NCBI RefSeq assembly: GCF_029937755.1 | Contig: NZ_JAPYPG010000008.1 | Span: forward strand, 1-64,000 | DNA from: Henriciella sp. | GTDB lineage: Bacteria > Pseudomonadota > Alphaproteobacteria > Caulobacterales > Hyphomonadaceae | Direction: 5' to 3' | Length of the DNA: 64,000 nucleotides | Part shown: one piece after another, positions 10,017-52,986 of the stretch | Layout of the letters: the number at the start of each line of letters is the position of its first letter | Position numbering within the stretch: the first letter of the stretch is position 1 | Position numbers and translations under genes: made by a program | The notes under the pieces: model-generated | Told to the model about the DNA's origin: nothing | The model's database searches: none | Seen by the model: only the letters and a program-made list of their open reading frames with translations

Positions 10017-10032
10017 TTAATCCACGCTTAAC
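10017..10032 (+). promoter_or_regulatory. CtrA box (TTAA-N7-TTAAC)
   Basis: TTAA (10017-10020), seven bases, TTAAC (10028-10032): an exact match to the Caulobacter CtrA consensus. The reverse strand also reads TTAA-N7-TTAAC, so the site is symmetric. On the plus strand a TATCCT (10038-10043) or TCTAAT (10043-10048) follows as a possible -10; on the minus strand GATAAT (10013-10008) does. It could control the candidate small RNA, the carbonic anhydrase gene, or both. Confidence 0.6.
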
Positions 10033-47197: not shown

Positions 47198-47406
47198 AAT
47201 CGCAGAAAAATGTGCAGTTTCAGAACAGTTTGACCCATGCCGGGACAGGTTCACGAACACCGGCTTAACAGCGCTGGGGAGAACGTTTTCAATTTTCATG
47301 AAAACTCACAGGTGCCGCTGAAAGCTGATTTAAGATGCCTGCTGTAGACATGGTTCCACGGACGCAGAAGCGTTCAATGCATCAACCGCTAATAATGGTG
47401 GATCTC

Positions 47407-47682
47407 ATGGCGCAGCAGAATGCGAAGACATTGAGTATAAAAGGCCCGGATGGCCGACCGATGACTCGGGACGACCTTCCTCCCCCCGGTATCAGCCGTT
47501 GGGTGACCCGCCGAAAGGCTGAGGTCGTCGCAGCGGTCCGGGGGGGCCTGCTATCCCGAAGAGAGGCTTGCGACCGCTATTCGCTCACGGAAGAAGAGCT
47601 GAATGGCTGGGACAAGCTCTACGACCAGCATGGTACAAAGGGACTGCGCACCACGCGCCTCCAGCAGTACCGCGCCAACTGA
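47407..47682 (+). CDS. sciP: CtrA inhibitor SciP
   Basis: A 91-residue protein of the DUF1153/SciP family. The core runs GPDGRPMTRDDLPPPGISRWVTRRKAEVVAAVRGGLLS (key part RRKAEVVAAVRGGLLS), then EACDRYSLTEEEL and the closing GLRTTRLQQYR, nearly the same as the Caulobacter protein. In Caulobacter SciP binds CtrA at its target promoters and blocks CtrA-driven transcription in newborn swarmer cells. The ATG at 47407, seven bases after GGTGGA, was selected; the earlier ATG at 47335 adds 24 residues absent from the family. It lies just ahead of the fliF operon, as in Caulobacter. Confidence 0.92.
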   Translation: MAQQNAKTLSIKGPDGRPMTRDDLPPPGISRWVTRRKAEVVAAVRGGLLSRREACDRYSLTEEELNGWDKLYDQHGTKGLRTTRLQQYRAN

Positions 47683-47731: not shown

Positions 47732-47747
47732 TTAAAGCGCCGTTTAC
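47732..47747 (+). promoter_or_regulatory. Near-consensus CtrA box upstream of the fliF operon
   Basis: TTAA (47732-47735), seven bases, TTTAC (47743-47747): one mismatch from TTAA-N7-TTAAC. It lies 71 bases before the fliF start used here. Early flagellar operons are direct CtrA targets in Caulobacter, which supports the call. Confidence 0.5.
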
Positions 47748-47817
47748 GCTGACCAGCCTATCCAGCTGAGGTCTGCGCCATGCATTTCACATGGCGTTCC
47801 TGAAGCAAGGCGAGGCG

Positions 47818-48495
47818 ATGTCAGCACCCAAGTCCAATATGCCTAGGGGCACGCGGCAGGCGGCGCTAATTGCGTTTGCACTGGCCGCGTGCCTGTTGGC
47901 CTGGCGGGGCATGACCCTCCTTTCCAGTGAAACACCGGCCGACGCCGCCGCCAAAGGCGACCCTGCGCTTCACGCTCTGCTCGATCCCGTGCTCGGCAAG
48001 AATTCCTTCCGTCTTGCCTCTCATACTGGCGATGACGGTGCTCGTAGCGTCCTCATTCTCGTCGATACGCCTGAAGCCCGCTTTCATCTTGATACCGAGA
48101 CCAGCGATCGCATCGAGACGATCCTCAGCGCCGCGACCGGTTTCGATCCTTCGCGCGACAGCCTGCAGATCCAGCCCTTTGCCTTTGCGCCCGGGACGAC
48201 AGGCGGTCTCGCGCAGGCAGACATGCTGGAACTCGGTGCCATGGTGCTGCTGACGGGCCTTCTCGGCTTCCTCGCCTTTGCGCCGGCGGCCGCTCAACCG
48301 CTTCCCGCCCAATCGGGCACAACGGAACCGTTTCCGCTGCCGAAAGCCCCCGCTGCGCCGACGCACCTGCGCGCCGTGCCGGATGAAGCGCCTGTCCCGG
48401 CCAGTCAGGCCGATGCCCAGCGTCTTGCCAGCGAAAATCCGAAACAGACCGCCCAGATCATCCGCAGCTGGATGAATGATGGAGGTTCATCATGA
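47818..48495 (+). CDS. fliF: Minimal FliF-like MS-ring protein lacking RBM1, RBM2 and the beta-collar
   Basis: A 225-residue protein recognised as FliF by its parts and by direct linkage to fliG. Residues 14-36 form a membrane helix; 49-122 fit the RBM3 core (LLDPVLGKNSFRL, then ILVDTPEARFHLDTE, ATGFDPSRDSLQIQPFAF); 136-155 form the second helix; 196-220 (LASENPKQTAQIIRSWM) match the FliF C-terminal helices that bind FliG. Ordinary FliF is about 530-570 residues. RBM1 and RBM2, the first 200 or so residues, are absent, and the beta-collar insert inside RBM3 is missing. No frameshifted remnant is visible in the 100 bases upstream. ATG 47791 is an alternative start nine codons earlier. Confidence 0.75.
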   Translation: MSAPKSNMPRGTRQAALIAFALAACLLAWRGMTLLSSETPADAAAKGDPALHALLDPVLGKNSFRLASHTGDDGARSVLILVDTPEARFHLDTETSDRIETILSAATGFDPSRDSLQIQPFAFAPGTTGGLAQADMLELGAMVLLTGLLGFLAFAPAAAQPLPAQSGTTEPFPLPKAPAAPTHLRAVPDEAPVPASQADAQRLASENPKQTAQIIRSWMNDGGSS

Positions 48496-49436
48496 GCCTC
48501 CCTGCCCTCGCTCAACAGCCCATGGTCGAGGCCACGCCCGGCACGCGCCGCGCCGCCCGGCTGATGCGCTCTCTCGGATCCGCCGGCGCAGCCGTGTGGG
48601 CAGAGCTCAGCCCTGACGAAGCCGACCGCCTCGCCCAGGTGATGGACAGCCCTGAGCCGGATGTCACACCCGCCAGGGCTGACGACGAGACATCTGCCTT
48701 CCTGTCCGACTTTCATCGGCCGGATCAGGGCGGACATCAGAAGACCGCCTCCATCTGGACGCAGCTGGACGTTCTCGAACCCGCCATGCTTGCCCGTGCG
48801 ATCACGTGCGAGCACCCACAGCTCATCGCCGTCATTCTCTCGCGGTTGTCTCCGGAGGTCGCCGCCCAGACCGTTCGCGCCCTGCCGCGCGAGCTGGCCA
48901 CCCAGGCCCTGAAGCGGCTGATGACGCTTGGCCGGATCCGGCCTGATACGCTCAGCCTCATCGAGACCGCCATGCAGGACCTGGTCGCCTCCAAGGCTGG
49001 CCGTCAGTCCGGCGATGGCCTGGAATCGGTCGCCCGCATTTTCGACCAGCTCGACCCCCGCCTGGAGCAGGGCCTGATGTCCTCCCTCGACCAGGACGAC
49101 CCGGGATCTGCCGCCCGCATCCGGGCGCTGATGTTTACCTTTGACGACCTCGCCGCCCTCGGTCCGGCCGCGATCCAGACCATCCTCTCACGCGTCGATC
49201 GGGCCGATCTGGCGGTCGCGCTCAAGGGGGCGAAAGCATCCGTTCGCCAGGTCTTCCTCGACAATATGACGAAGCGTGCCGGCGAGATGCTGGTCGCCGA
49301 AACCAGCGGTCTCGGCCCCGTGCGCCGGTCCGAAATCGAGAAGGCGCGCCAGCAGGTCATTACGATCGCTCGCACCCTTGCGCGGCGAGGTGACATCCTC
49401 GCCCAGGACGATCCGGAAGACGAGTTGATCGAATGA
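48492..49436 (+). CDS. fliG: Flagellar motor switch protein FliG
   Basis: A 314-residue FliG. The N-terminal domain (about 15-60, RAARLMRSLGSAGAAVWAEL) binds the FliF tail. The middle domain has the EHPQ motif (residues 107-110) followed by LIAVILSRLSPEVAAQ. The C-terminal torque domain holds MFTFDDLAALGPAAIQTILSRVD (core FDDLA) and closes with RRSEIEKARQQVI. It is slightly shorter than Caulobacter FliG, mostly in the linker after the N domain. The start overlaps the fliF stop (ATGA), and its own stop overlaps fliH the same way. Confidence 0.92.
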   Translation: MSLPALAQQPMVEATPGTRRAARLMRSLGSAGAAVWAELSPDEADRLAQVMDSPEPDVTPARADDETSAFLSDFHRPDQGGHQKTASIWTQLDVLEPAMLARAITCEHPQLIAVILSRLSPEVAAQTVRALPRELATQALKRLMTLGRIRPDTLSLIETAMQDLVASKAGRQSGDGLESVARIFDQLDPRLEQGLMSSLDQDDPGSAARIRALMFTFDDLAALGPAAIQTILSRVDRADLAVALKGAKASVRQVFLDNMTKRAGEMLVAETSGLGPVRRSEIEKARQQVITIARTLARRGDILAQDDPEDELIE

Positions 49437-49786: not shown

Positions 49787-49881
49787 AGGCTCGCAGCCGA
49801 CCCCCGCCCCGCGCGTTCATTTCTCGGAAACCAATCCGGGTGAGGTTGCTGATTCGCCACCCGATTCGTGGAGTAGACCTG

Positions 49882-50142
49882 ATGGCCGACAATCGCACGC
49901 CCGACACCGGACTCTTCGATGTGCCCGTCCGCGTGGACGTTGTTCTGGGCGAGGCCCGCATGCCGGTGGAAGAGCTGCTGAACCTCAGCGAAGGCGAGAT
50001 TGTCGAGCTCCAGAAGCGCACAAACGAGCCGATCGACATCTATGTTTCCGACCGCCTCATGGCACGCGGACGCCTCGTCGTGGCCGATGGCCAGCTGGGC
50101 GTAAAGCTTTCGGAAATCGTCGACGAGAAGCGCGCCGCCTGA
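49882..50142 (+). CDS. fliN: Flagellar motor switch protein FliN
   Basis: An 86-residue FliN consisting of one SpoA/FliN domain: LFDVPVRVDVVLGEARMPVEELLNLSEG (core VPVRVDVVLG) at the start, then NEPIDIYVSDRLMARGRLVV and the family ending KLSEIVD. It forms the C-ring with FliG and FliM. The ATG at 49882 follows GTGGAG and was chosen over a GTG/ATG reading beginning at 49840. A 95-base gap separates it from fliH. Confidence 0.9.
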   Translation: MADNRTPDTGLFDVPVRVDVVLGEARMPVEELLNLSEGEIVELQKRTNEPIDIYVSDRLMARGRLVVADGQLGVKLSEIVDEKRAA

Positions 50143-50237: not shown

Positions 50238-50281
50238 CTTTTCGCGCGAGGGTGTGATTCCGGAAGTGGAGTGAATTGCCC

Positions 50282-51289
50282 ATGCGCATGAAAATGTTCG
50301 CAGCTGAGACGTTCGAGGCCGCCAAGGCGATGATTTTTGCCGAGATGGGTGAGGATGCTATTATCCTCTCCGAGCGGGAAGTTCCGGGTGGTGTCGAGGT
50401 TCGCGCTGCGACTGACAAGCTTGGCGGGGGCATGGTCCCGAGTGAGCCGCGCTTTGTCGCTCGCCTGAACCGCAATACCGGCCCCGCCCGTCCGCAGGAT
50501 AATCCCCTGCGCAATCGCGTCCGCGACGCCCTGATCTGGCATGGCGCGCCCGAGCGCTTCGCCGAACGCGTCGCCGACGCCGGCATGCCGATAAGTTCAA
50601 GAACACAAGACCCGGCTGAGATCATGGCCTCCGGTCTCGATGCCCTGATTACCTGCGATCCGATCCCGGCCATGCCGACGCGCGACGTGCTGCTTGTCGG
50701 TCCGCCCGGACATGGCCGCACGGCCACCGCCGCCAAGATGACGCGCAGGGCCGCCGTGACCGGACACGAAATCCTGCCCGTCGCCGCTGACCTCGATTCG
50801 ACCGCCGGCGGCGCCCAGCTTGCAGCCTATCTCGAGCTCGAGCAGCGCCAGATCCGCGCGGCGAGCACACCTGACGATCTCTTCTCCCTTCTCAAGCAAT
50901 CCCGGACCGATGGCTATCGCTGCGTAATCGACCTTCCGGCGATTGTTCCCTTCGATGAGGAAGACATGGCCAGCCTCAAGGATCTGATCGCGGTGATTGA
51001 CGCCGAACCGGTCCTGGTGATGTCTGCAGAAGGCCATCCCGACGACCTTGCCGAAGCCGCGCGCGCCTTTGCCTCTGTTGGCGTGCGCCGGGCCATCGTC
51101 ACCAAACTCGATGTTACGCGACGGCGCGGAGGTGTCGTGTCCGCCCTCTCGGCGGCTGGCATTGCCTTCGCCCACCTCGCCGTCACACCCTTCATTGGCG
51201 GCGGTCTCGTTCCGGCTGCACCGGGGCGTCTCTCCAGAATTTTGCTGGAAGAAGCTCCAGCAGATATCGCGCTGAAAGGAGCTGCCTGA
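50282..51289 (+). CDS. flhF: FlhF-like SRP-type GTPase with degenerate nucleotide site
   Basis: A 335-residue protein. The FlhF N-terminal B-domain start MRMKMFAAETFEAAKAMIFA is clear. The G domain (about 130-335) is altered: the P-loop GPPGHGRT has Arg146 in place of the essential Lys; the DTYR motif reads DLDS; DTAGR reads DLPAI; only the G4 motif TKLD (274-277) is intact. FlhF normally sets flagellar number and polar location by GTP-driven dimerisation. Here GTP hydrolysis is doubtful. ATG 50282, following GGAAGTGGAG, was used instead of a TTG two codons earlier. One base separates it from flhG. Confidence 0.78.
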   Translation: MRMKMFAAETFEAAKAMIFAEMGEDAIILSEREVPGGVEVRAATDKLGGGMVPSEPRFVARLNRNTGPARPQDNPLRNRVRDALIWHGAPERFAERVADAGMPISSRTQDPAEIMASGLDALITCDPIPAMPTRDVLLVGPPGHGRTATAAKMTRRAAVTGHEILPVAADLDSTAGGAQLAAYLELEQRQIRAASTPDDLFSLLKQSRTDGYRCVIDLPAIVPFDEEDMASLKDLIAVIDAEPVLVMSAEGHPDDLAEAARAFASVGVRRAIVTKLDVTRRRGGVVSALSAAGIAFAHLAVTPFIGGGLVPAAPGRLSRILLEEAPADIALKGAA

Positions 51290-51290
51290 T

Positions 51291-52142
51291 ATGAGCTTCA
51301 TGCTCCCCAAATCCATGGACCGGCCCACCGGCTCGCAGGGAAAAGTCCCGCGCCGGCGTGTTGAGCCTGGTCAGATTATTGCTGTCGCGTCCGGAAAGGG
51401 CGGCGTCGGCAAGACCTTTATGTCAATCACTCTCGCCAGCGCCTTCGCGCAGGCCGGGCAGCGGACACTCCTTGTCGACGGGGACCTTGGTCTCGCAAAT
51501 GTCGACGTCCAGCTTGGCATCGCCCCCGAGACCGACCTGGCGGCCGTTATCGCCGGCTGGATCGAGCTTGAGGACGCGGTCATCAACGTCGATGGCGGCG
51601 CCGGACAGGGCGGCTTTGACGTCTTGCCGGGCCGGTCTGGCTCCGGTGCACTGGCCGAACTCTCATCTGAAGAAGTTGCCCGCCTCGCTGCGGGGCTTTC
51701 TGCACTTGCCCTGCAATATGACAAGGTCGTCCTCGACCTCGGGGCCGGAATCGAGGCCAACTGCATGCGACTGGCACGTGCAGCGGACAAGGCCATGATG
51801 GTGATTACCGATGACCCGTCCTCGATGACCGACGGCTACGCCTTCATCAAGGTGCTGCGCGGTTATGCGCCGGATGTCGAACAGGGCATCATCATCAACC
51901 AGGCCAATACCCGCGCCATGGGCCAGCAGACCTATGAGGCGATTGCACGGGCCTGCAAGCAGTTCCTGGGCTTCCGCCCGAACCTCGCCGGGATTGTCAT
52001 GCGCGACGAAAAGGTCCGTGAAGCGATCCGTAGCCAGCGCACACTGATTTCGACGGATCCGTCGGCTCAGCCGGTTCAGGATGCCATTGCCATCGCCCAG
52101 ACTCTTATCGGATCGGGACGCAGCGAAGACCTGCACTGTTAA
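51291..52142 (+). CDS. flhG: FlhG/MinD-like ATPase controlling flagellum number
   Basis: A 283-residue deviant Walker-A ATPase. The KGGVGKT motif is at about residue 35, followed by the switch LLVDGDLGLANVDVQLG and the second switch in VVLDLGAGIE. It lacks a recognisable C-terminal amphipathic membrane-targeting helix of the MinD type but has the FlhG-like R/K-rich region near the end. In polar flagellates FlhG limits flagellar number by acting on FlhF and the switch complex. It directly follows flhF, and ctrA begins 124 bases later on the same strand. Confidence 0.85.
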   Translation: MSFMLPKSMDRPTGSQGKVPRRRVEPGQIIAVASGKGGVGKTFMSITLASAFAQAGQRTLLVDGDLGLANVDVQLGIAPETDLAAVIAGWIELEDAVINVDGGAGQGGFDVLPGRSGSGALAELSSEEVARLAAGLSALALQYDKVVLDLGAGIEANCMRLARAADKAMMVITDDPSSMTDGYAFIKVLRGYAPDVEQGIIINQANTRAMGQQTYEAIARACKQFLGFRPNLAGIVMRDEKVREAIRSQRTLISTDPSAQPVQDAIAIAQTLIGSGRSEDLHC

Positions 52143-52178: not shown

Positions 52179-52193
52179 TTAAACTCTTGGTAA

Positions 52194-52266: not shown

Positions 52267-52986
52267 ATGCGAGTTCTTCTAATCGAAGACGACAACTCGG
52301 TCGCCCGCAGCATAGAGCTCATGCTCAAAGCGGCCGGCTTCAATATCTACACCACCGATCTCGGTGAAGAGGGCGTCGACCTCGGCAAAGTGTACGAGTA
52401 CGACATCATCATCCTCGACCTTTCGCTGCCCGATATCTCCGGCTACGAAGTGCTGAAGCAGCTGCGCATGGCGCGTATCAACACCCCGGTGCTGATCCTG
52501 TCCGGCAATCCGGACATCGAGGCGAAAGTTAAGACACTCGGTTATGGTGCTGACGATTACCTCACCAAGCCGTTTAACAAGGACGAGCTGATTGCACGGA
52601 TTACCGCAATCGTTCGCCGCTCCAAGGGTCATGCCGAGAGCGTCATCCGCACCGGCGAGATCCTGGTCAACCTGGATGCCAAGACTGTCGAAGTGGAAGG
52701 CGATCGCGTCCACCTCACCGGCAAGGAATACCAGATGTTCGAGCTGCTTTCGCTTCGGAAGGGCACGACGCTGACCAAGGAAATGTTCCTCAACCACCTT
52801 TATGGCGGCATGGACGAGCCGGAACTGAAGATCATCGACGTCTTCATCTGCAAGCTCCGCAAGAAGCTCGCCAAGGCGACGGCTACTGCCGACAACCCCG
52901 GTGGCGACCACTATATCGAAACCGTCTGGGGCCGAGGCTATGTGCTGCGTGACCCGAAGAAAAAGGAAGATGCGATCGCTGCCTGA
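52267..52986 (+). CDS. ctrA: Cell-cycle response regulator CtrA
   Basis: A 239-residue OmpR/PhoB-family regulator nearly identical in layout to Caulobacter CtrA. The receiver (1-120) has the acidic pair EDD (7-9), phospho-acceptor Asp51 ([10 protein letters not shown]) and the Lys in DDYLTKPF. The DNA-binding domain (about 128-235) contains [31 protein letters not shown] and [11 protein letters not shown], which is the CtrA recognition helix. The C terminus ends in AA, as needed for ClpXP degradation in Caulobacter. It controls flagellar, division, methylation and replication functions. A terminator follows at 53019. Confidence 0.95.

Follow-up and report, generated by a model that had tools for sequence, protein, structure and literature searches.

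A collarless mini-FliF and a second set of motor genes in Henriciella: a candidate orphan rotor–stator unit derived from a flagellum

In the window, i.e., the whole 64,000-nucleotide stretch of Henriciella sp. DNA analysed here, the gene directly upstream of fliG encodes a 225-residue protein that we call mini-FliF. On sequence grounds the gene is real and homologous to FliF, and, as judged from profile matches and a structural model, its product is composed of RBM3, TM2 and a FliG-binding-type tail behind one N-terminal helix. In these marine bacteria the protein is accompanied by a second set of motor components (MotA2, MotB2, FliG2, FliM2, and FliN2), which is probably an orphan rotor–stator unit derived from an A-type flagellum, with mini-FliF as its shrunken membrane anchor. 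Here, A-type denotes the ancestral CtrA-linked system and B-type the motility island on contig C1 of the same genome. We consider this the simplest reading because the stator has been kept in step with mini-FliF, and because the locus has lost flhA together with the parts of FliF that house the export gate and the rod.

Results

Architecture of mini-FliF

The mini-FliF stop codon overlaps the start of fliG at position 48492 (Table 1), as the first-pass annotation had pointed out. An alternative ATG at 47791 would add nine residues; homologues such as L010, L011, L013, and L015 have an ATG at the place equivalent to 47818, the starts in the homologue alignment having been picked by the analyst. 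A Pfam scan up to E 1 returned a single, weak match, to YscJ_FliF_C (PF08345; E 0.032, 15.1 bits, cut-off 23.8), and none to PF01514, and for the orthologue in genome G022 Pfam gives nothing at E ≤ 0.001. A profile of 19 family members matches full-length FliF with a probability of 97% (E 5e-11 for A-type and 1e-11 for B-type FliF), and the match covers the C-terminal third of FliF.

The AlphaFold model contains a helix (residues 10–35), an alpha-beta-beta-alpha-beta core (residues 49–121), a second helix (residues 133–154) and two tail helices, at a confidence that is low overall (mean pLDDT 63.4) and 73–88 per ten-residue block in residues 51–120. Foldseek alone returned no match to this model at E ≤ 0.001. 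In a second look at the PDB, the seven best rows are FliF RBM3 rings, with FliF ranked first but unrelated KH-like folds close behind, and SctJ-type structures (EscJ, PrgK, and the Shigella inner ring) are among the weaker matches. In the seven best rows, 74–78 residues align across 180–194 FliF residues, which implies that mini-FliF is without the beta-collar, and the model has no residues for one. The RBM3 fold is thus present by profile, model and fold matches, the RBM1–RBM2 pair (PF01514) is absent, with a single RBM-type core in the model, and the tail has a sequence match to A-type FliF tails. The first-pass annotation had proposed this anatomy (helix, RBM3-like core, helix, and FliG-binding-type tail), and the profile, the fold matches and the model of the 225-residue protein alone, which it had suggested predicting, bear it out; its reading that RBM1, RBM2 and the beta-collar are missing agrees with Pfam, the model and the PDB alignment.

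Like FliF of Salmonella, Vibrio and the A-type systems, mini-FliF combines an RBM3 fold, TM2 and a FliG-binding-type tail with a position upstream of fliG, but it is without RBM1, RBM2 and the beta-collar, and has 225 residues as against 536–593 in the 22 A-type FliF proteins collected. The B-type FliF shares the homologous C-terminal third with mini-FliF, but is full length and lies in the motility island. Type III secretion proteins of the SctJ/PrgK kind have the RBM1–RBM2 pair that is absent from mini-FliF.

Distribution

Mini-FliF occurs in 28 of the 61 genomes searched, namely the window's own, 24 of 28 same-genus relatives, G032, G035, and G036; the 29th match of that search, in G045, is a full-length FliF. 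A further same-genus relative, G023, carries a shorter form. Conservation of the short form among relatives, which the first-pass annotation had proposed checking, leads us to reject a frameshift or sequencing error hiding a longer frame, an option that it had left open, and occurrence in four genera upholds its view that the gene is not a recent truncation.

Among the matches listed for 398 genomes of the order, 66 genomes score >100 bits, and every one of them belongs to genus g1, g5, g8, or g9 of a single family. The other matches listed are FliF frames from about 500 aa upwards, matched at model positions of about 73–221, with a few short frames outside that family (G203, G212, and G315). 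Mini-FliF outside the family was rejected as a candidate finding, the other matches listed being mainly full FliF frames of that length. A search of named genomes with a six-row profile retrieved six Henriciella records, and a single-protein scan of named genomes with mini-FliF found nothing.

Gene order and origin of the locus

Table 1. Features of the mini-FliF locus (positions in the window)
Feature	Position	Strand	Basis or remark
SciP-like DUF1153 protein	47335..47682	+	Pfam PF06627 E 5e-37; marks ancestral sciP-fliF-fliG locus
CtrA-like box TTAA-N7-TTTA	47732..47746	+	86 nt 5' of mini-FliF start
Mini-FliF, 225 aa	47818..48495	+	ORF, profile, predicted fold, alignment
N-terminal helix taken as TM1, residues 10–35	47845..47922	+	AlphaFold secondary structure
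RBM3-like core without beta-collar, residues 47–124	47956..48189	+	
TM2 helix, residues 133–154	48214..48279	+	AlphaFold model; aligns with FliF region after RBM3
Putative FliG-binding-type tail, residues 194–220, NPKQTAQIIRSWM	48397..48477	+	Model, profile, A-type tail match
FliG2, 314 aa; FliG_N shortened, middle and C-terminal domains present	48492..49436	+	Pfam, tree, alignment
FlbE2-like protein, 117 aa	49433..49786	+	Position and homologues
FliN2	49840..50142	+	PF01052 E 1.3e-23
FlhF-like SRP-type GTPase	50276..51289	+	PF00448 E 1.7e-13
FlhG/MinD-like ATPase	51291..52142	+	PF01656 E 1.5e-17
CtrA-like box 5' of ctrA	52179..52193	+	One mismatch
CtrA-like response regulator	52267..52986	+	PF00072 and PF00486

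The names SciP (for the product of 47335..47682), FlbE2-like (from gene position) and CtrA-like (for the response regulator at 52267..52986) are our assumptions. The SciP-like gene holds the same position next to a full FliF in five A-type loci; an FlhF homologue lies downstream in four of these five, and an FlhG homologue lies downstream in two A-type loci. The complete A-type order, found in G030 and G031, is SciP-like, FliF, FliG, one gene, FliN, FlhA, FlhF, FlhG. It is kept in part in G040, G045, and G052, whose stretches gave no FlhF or no FlhG; G048 has a different order. In the window genome and in G006, G010, G012, G013, G018, G022, G028 (with a 1.7-kb gap before FlhF), and G032, the order is SciP-like, mini-FliF, FliG2, FlbE2-like, FliN2, FlhF, FlhG, CtrA. 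FlhA is missing from the mini-FliF locus, and no A-type FlhA is found in the window genome. The FlbE2-like protein has no Pfam match above cut-off; it is far shorter than its island counterpart (186 aa), which is likewise without one.

In a tree of 73 FliG proteins, which has several long branches, the 28 FliG2 rows form one clade (100/100) on the A-type side, very distant from FliG1, and the 23 B-type rows form another. MotA2 (9 of 45 rows) and MotB2 (9 of 25) each form a single clade (100/100), also on the A-type side; in all three trees the root was placed by the analyst on the B-type rows, and the A-type side is set off by a supported branch. One very divergent G052 row, labelled B by the analyst, also falls on the A-type side of the MotB tree. 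FliM2 matches A-type FliM at only about 20 bits.

From its locus, neighbours and tail, we infer that mini-FliF is the ancestral A-type fliF in reduced form, and not a copy of the island fliF; the trees took in FliG, MotA and MotB, and the descent of mini-FliF itself rests on those three features. Counter to A-type descent, the mini-FliF profile fits B-type FliF slightly better (E 1e-11 versus 5e-11).

We note three further observations. G048 and G052 (L102, L103, L104, and L108), which belong to another family, have two FliF and two FlhA each, one A-type and one B-type, so an ancestor may have possessed A-type and B-type systems side by side. Another MotA/MotB-like pair, very divergent in sequence, is present at L203 8030–9698 (G052) and on C12 of G040. 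In G012, a third, sub-threshold FliG_C match lies in a 467-aa frame at C4:128177 (L107).

The full-length FliF and the B-type island

A search of the genome for a second FliF, proposed in the first-pass annotation, succeeded: PF01514 detects a single FliF, of 508 aa, on contig C1, which matches PF08345 as well. The same 20 kb of C1 encode FliG, FliP, FliN, a FliM-type protein, FlgE, FlgK, FlgI, a presumed FlgL carrying a flagellin C-terminal domain, and MotA and MotB of B-type. The only FlhA of the genome lies ~12 kb before this stretch, on the same contig and with rod-type proteins between; the B-type genes cluster on C1 at about 135–164 kb. FlhF and FlhG homologues were not found in the 20 kb of the island, and are found in the mini-FliF locus.

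These findings bear on the first-pass suggestion that the flagellar base is built on a stripped-down M-ring. Mini-FliF does lie directly upstream of fliG, but the full-length FliF belongs to an island that also encodes hook, rod, P-ring, filament-type and export proteins. FlhA is encoded once in the genome, on the island contig, and mini-FliF is without the parts that house the export gate. A mini-FliF ring that itself carries a flagellum is hardly credible, and was rejected as the base of the working flagellum.

A second rotor and stator

A second MotA and a second MotB are present in all 28 mini-FliF genomes among the 61 searched; they were told from the B-type copies by place and lower score, and nine of each were read and aligned. 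FliG2 is present in 27 of the 28, and in the remaining one, G036, the contig breaks off next to mini-FliF. The FliM2 sequence was obtained from ten genomes; four of them (G007, G011, G023, and G027) have no mini-FliF match, G023 having the reduced form. The window genome spreads the set over four places: the window, C16 (FliM2), C18 (MotA2), and C34 (MotB2).

In the window genome (G000) and in G022, the Pfam families MotB_plug, OmpA, MotA_N and MotA_ExbB score above cut-off, as do FliG_N (first half only), FliG_M and FliG_C in FliG2 (in the window, FliG_C 6.6e-36, FliG_M 5e-16, and FliG_N over profile positions 4–51 of 104). FliM2 of these two genomes matches only FliMN_C, the FliN-like domain, at E ≤ 0.001, and the island FliM is likewise matched only by its FliN-like domain. 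In neither of the FliM-type proteins of the window genome (L002 2446–3381 and L187 9559–10608) does Pfam detect the FliM middle domain.

The MotB aspartate, the MotA glutamate and prolines, the residues of the FliG torque helix and the CheY-binding motif of FliM have established roles in flagellar motors. The stator aspartate and the OmpA-like domain of MotB2 are kept in nine of nine aligned sequences, with a shorter linker, and the loop glutamate and two prolines of MotA2 are likewise kept in nine of nine, flagellum-less genomes included. In the torque helix of FliG2 (eight sequences aligned), the lysine is conserved in seven, the first arginine in all eight and the second arginine, as arginine or lysine, in seven; the first aspartate position is acidic in two, and the second is glutamate in all eight. 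The row that departs most in the FliG2 alignment is that of G023. The N-terminal stretch of FliM2 resembles the CheY-binding motif.

CtrA-like boxes

We searched for TTAA-N7-TTAA, which we take to be the CtrA consensus, with at most one mismatch. A box lies 61–91 nt before mini-FliF in nine of nine genomes and 5' of FliM2 in six of six. For A-type FliF, all five cases tried have a box within 400 nt, a feature in common with mini-FliF, and B-type FliF of the window genome has one (1/1). Boxes are found for MotA2 in two of seven cases, and for A-type FliM (0/4), MotB2 (0/7) and FlhF (0/1) in none. Altogether, 19 of the 32 upstream stretches tried have a box, compared with 5.6% of random 300-nt stretches of the same loci, whereas the window as a whole holds four boxes versus 2.1 expected, not clearly above chance. 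The conserved boxes would be candidate binding sites for CtrA. The sole exact box of the window is at 10017–10031.

Genomes without flagellar markers

Three mini-FliF genomes, G006, G013, and G022 (95, 100, and 99% complete), gave no match to another FliF, to FlhA or to rod and hook proteins in genome profile searches. The rod and hook search gave 4–5 matches in G000, G018, G028, G031, and G032 and none in G006, G007, G013, G022, G023, G027, and G029. Each of the three has one FliG, one MotA, one MotB and two FliM/N, all of the second kind, and mini-FliF, FliG2, FliM2, FliN2, MotA2, MotB2, FlhF, and FlhG are open genes. Such cells would be flagellum-less, as judged from draft genomes, and motor parts kept without a flagellum suggest a rotary motor that has been put to another use. 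Since the B-type genes are clustered, absence of the island alone would take away all B-type markers; if the island had been missed in three draft assemblies, a single gap in a region such as that on C1 would hide all of it. Such an artefact is quite improbable given the completeness of the assemblies, and given that the three genomes group in the FliG2 tree (99/84), so that one deletion explains all three.

In all 24 comparisons of these eight genes (three pairs of genomes), differences are fewer at codon position 2 than at position 3: third positions differ at 52–67% of codons and second positions at 2–42%, in a simple count in which third positions approach saturation. Of the eight, mini-FliF is under the weakest constraint (position 2/3 ratio 0.54–0.71), with 37–39% identity among the three genomes. 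Its fast evolution, together with its loss in G007 and reduction in G023, would fit a decaying relic without function, but this is very improbable, as the operon is intact and its order unchanged in nine loci of two genera, the codon-position bias holds in all eight genes (strong in most, weak in mini-FliF) and the CtrA-like box is conserved.

The first-pass annotation had also offered mini-FliF as a paralogue or an adaptor. The former stands; the latter does not account for the three relatives without FliF, FlhA, rod and hook matches, although in flagellated species mini-FliF may act as an adaptor of the B-type flagellum. In a wider version, the second set as a whole would place or tune the B-type flagellum, or mix with its rotor or stator. 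A full-length FliF and FlhA accompany mini-FliF in 25 of its 28 genomes (among 61), and FlhF and FlhG homologues were found near mini-FliF but nowhere in the 20 kb of the island, both of which would agree with such an accessory; we nevertheless regard it as distinctly unlikely, as none of the B-type markers tested is found in G006, G013, and G022, which retain the set, FliG2 is very distant from FliG1, and the B-type FliF comes with a tail and a FliG of its own.

Six same-genus genomes are without B-type markers, i.e., the three above and G007, G023, and G027; G011 is fragmented, but its B-type genes are present. G007 has no mini-FliF, FliG, MotA or MotB match, and other genes occupy the place of mini-FliF, but it retains FliN2, FliM2, FlhF, FlhG, and CtrA. 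The fliF gene of G023 (L264 4013–4487) encodes 126 aa, with two hydrophobic stretches and a FliG-binding-type tail and without RBM3, and that genome gave no MotB match. In G027, MotA2, MotB2 and FliM2 are present, and no mini-FliF, FliG or FliN was found. Loss of mini-FliF in G007 and G027 and its reduction in G023 imply that the unit is dispensable.

The genes left in G007, which has no match to a stator, are among the points in favour of a polar scaffold that is not a motor, in which mini-FliF, FliG2 and FliN2, with FlhF and FlhG, would serve as a pole marker or pass information to the CtrA cell-cycle circuit, MotA2 and MotB2 having a separate role. The locus joins FlhF, FlhG and ctrA, the torque residues of FliG2 are altered in part, and Shewanella FlhF binds FliG and brings FliF–FliG to the pole, according to the part of PMC11236974 consulted. 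A scaffold has no need of a proton-driven stator, however, and the presence of MotA2 and MotB2 in 28 of 28 mini-FliF genomes, with key residues kept in the nine of each aligned, makes it unlikely.

Discussion

The RBM1, RBM2 and collar regions of FliF house the export gate and the rod, and the FliF ring has about 33–34 subunits. In the orphan rotor–stator unit that we favour, mini-FliF would be a remnant of the FliF of an ancestral CtrA-linked A-type flagellum, and the full-length FliF and other flagellar genes would represent a second, distant B-type island. The A-type export gate and axial parts would have been lost, and RBM1, RBM2 and the collar with them, whereas the parts able to hold a C-ring in the membrane would have been retained. 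Mini-FliF, through its membrane helices, RBM3 and tail, would anchor FliG2–FliM2–FliN2, MotA2 and MotB2 would supply torque, FlhF and FlhG would position the unit, perhaps at a pole, and CtrA would time mini-FliF and FliM2. Against it stand the first aspartate position of FliG2, non-acidic in six of eight sequences, the shortened FliG_N, the lone FliN-like domain that Pfam detects in FliM2, the dispensability of the unit, and the uneven occurrence of CtrA-like boxes. A more far-reaching form of this reading, which we put forward tentatively as possible but short of likely, is a free-standing rotary motor, with the C-ring on a collarless mini M-ring and its own MotA/MotB, in cells perhaps without a flagellum; such a motor may assemble and turn, or sense a non-flagellar load, without an export gate, rod or hook.

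In the partial flagella that are best known, that of Buchnera among them, the export side remains and the motor has gone. If the reading is correct, the lineage described here would have done the reverse, retaining rotor and stator and discarding export and axle; the flagellar motor would then be a module that can be detached and is useful by itself, mini-FliF would offer a minimal M-ring for structural work, and it would become testable whether a flagellar motor acts without a filament, e.g., as a sensor.

In 2017, Hug et al. reportedly described the Caulobacter flagellar motor as a surface sensor. By analogy with such work, where contact with a surface is signalled by engagement of the stator, the unit could be a proton-driven sensor (e.g., of surface contact or load) and not a propeller, a guess that we consider rather doubtful. 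The Caulobacter work is cited in PMC7885107 and PMC6581867, as far as the accessible portions go; the accessible portion of the former argues for load on a filament and rejects a sensor without a tether, and the guess is the weaker for it. Caulobacter surface sensing likewise has a stator–rotor unit with a signal as its output, but with an ordinary flagellum.

In the sections of PMC9927559 consulted, Lysobacter enzymogenes, which is without flagella, has kept the export apparatus and lost fliG, fliM, motA, and motB; it is the inverse of the mini-FliF case, and also an example of part of a flagellum kept after flagellum loss. A survey, in the part available (PMC12199754), finds MotA, MotB and FliA together in 20% of genomes scored as non-motile, with some C-ring hits, so the persistence of motor genes is in itself already known; that part describes no reduced FliF and no rotor–stator set kept together at one ancestral locus. 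In the open-licence literature, parts of PMC12700997, PMC12826062, PMC8116508, PMC7693769, PMC13023049, and PMC11870540 included, we recognised no earlier report of a reduced FliF with a second stator, and an earlier report elsewhere is possible. The terms fliF, motA and motB are absent from the main text, as accessed, of a study of CtrA in Hyphomonas neptunium (PMC7200025). Rhodobacter (Cereibacter) sphaeroides has two flagellar gene sets, fla1 and fla2, of which fla2 is under CtrA, according to the portion of PMC6180460 available; both sets make flagella there, whereas the CtrA-linked set described here appears reduced to motor parts.
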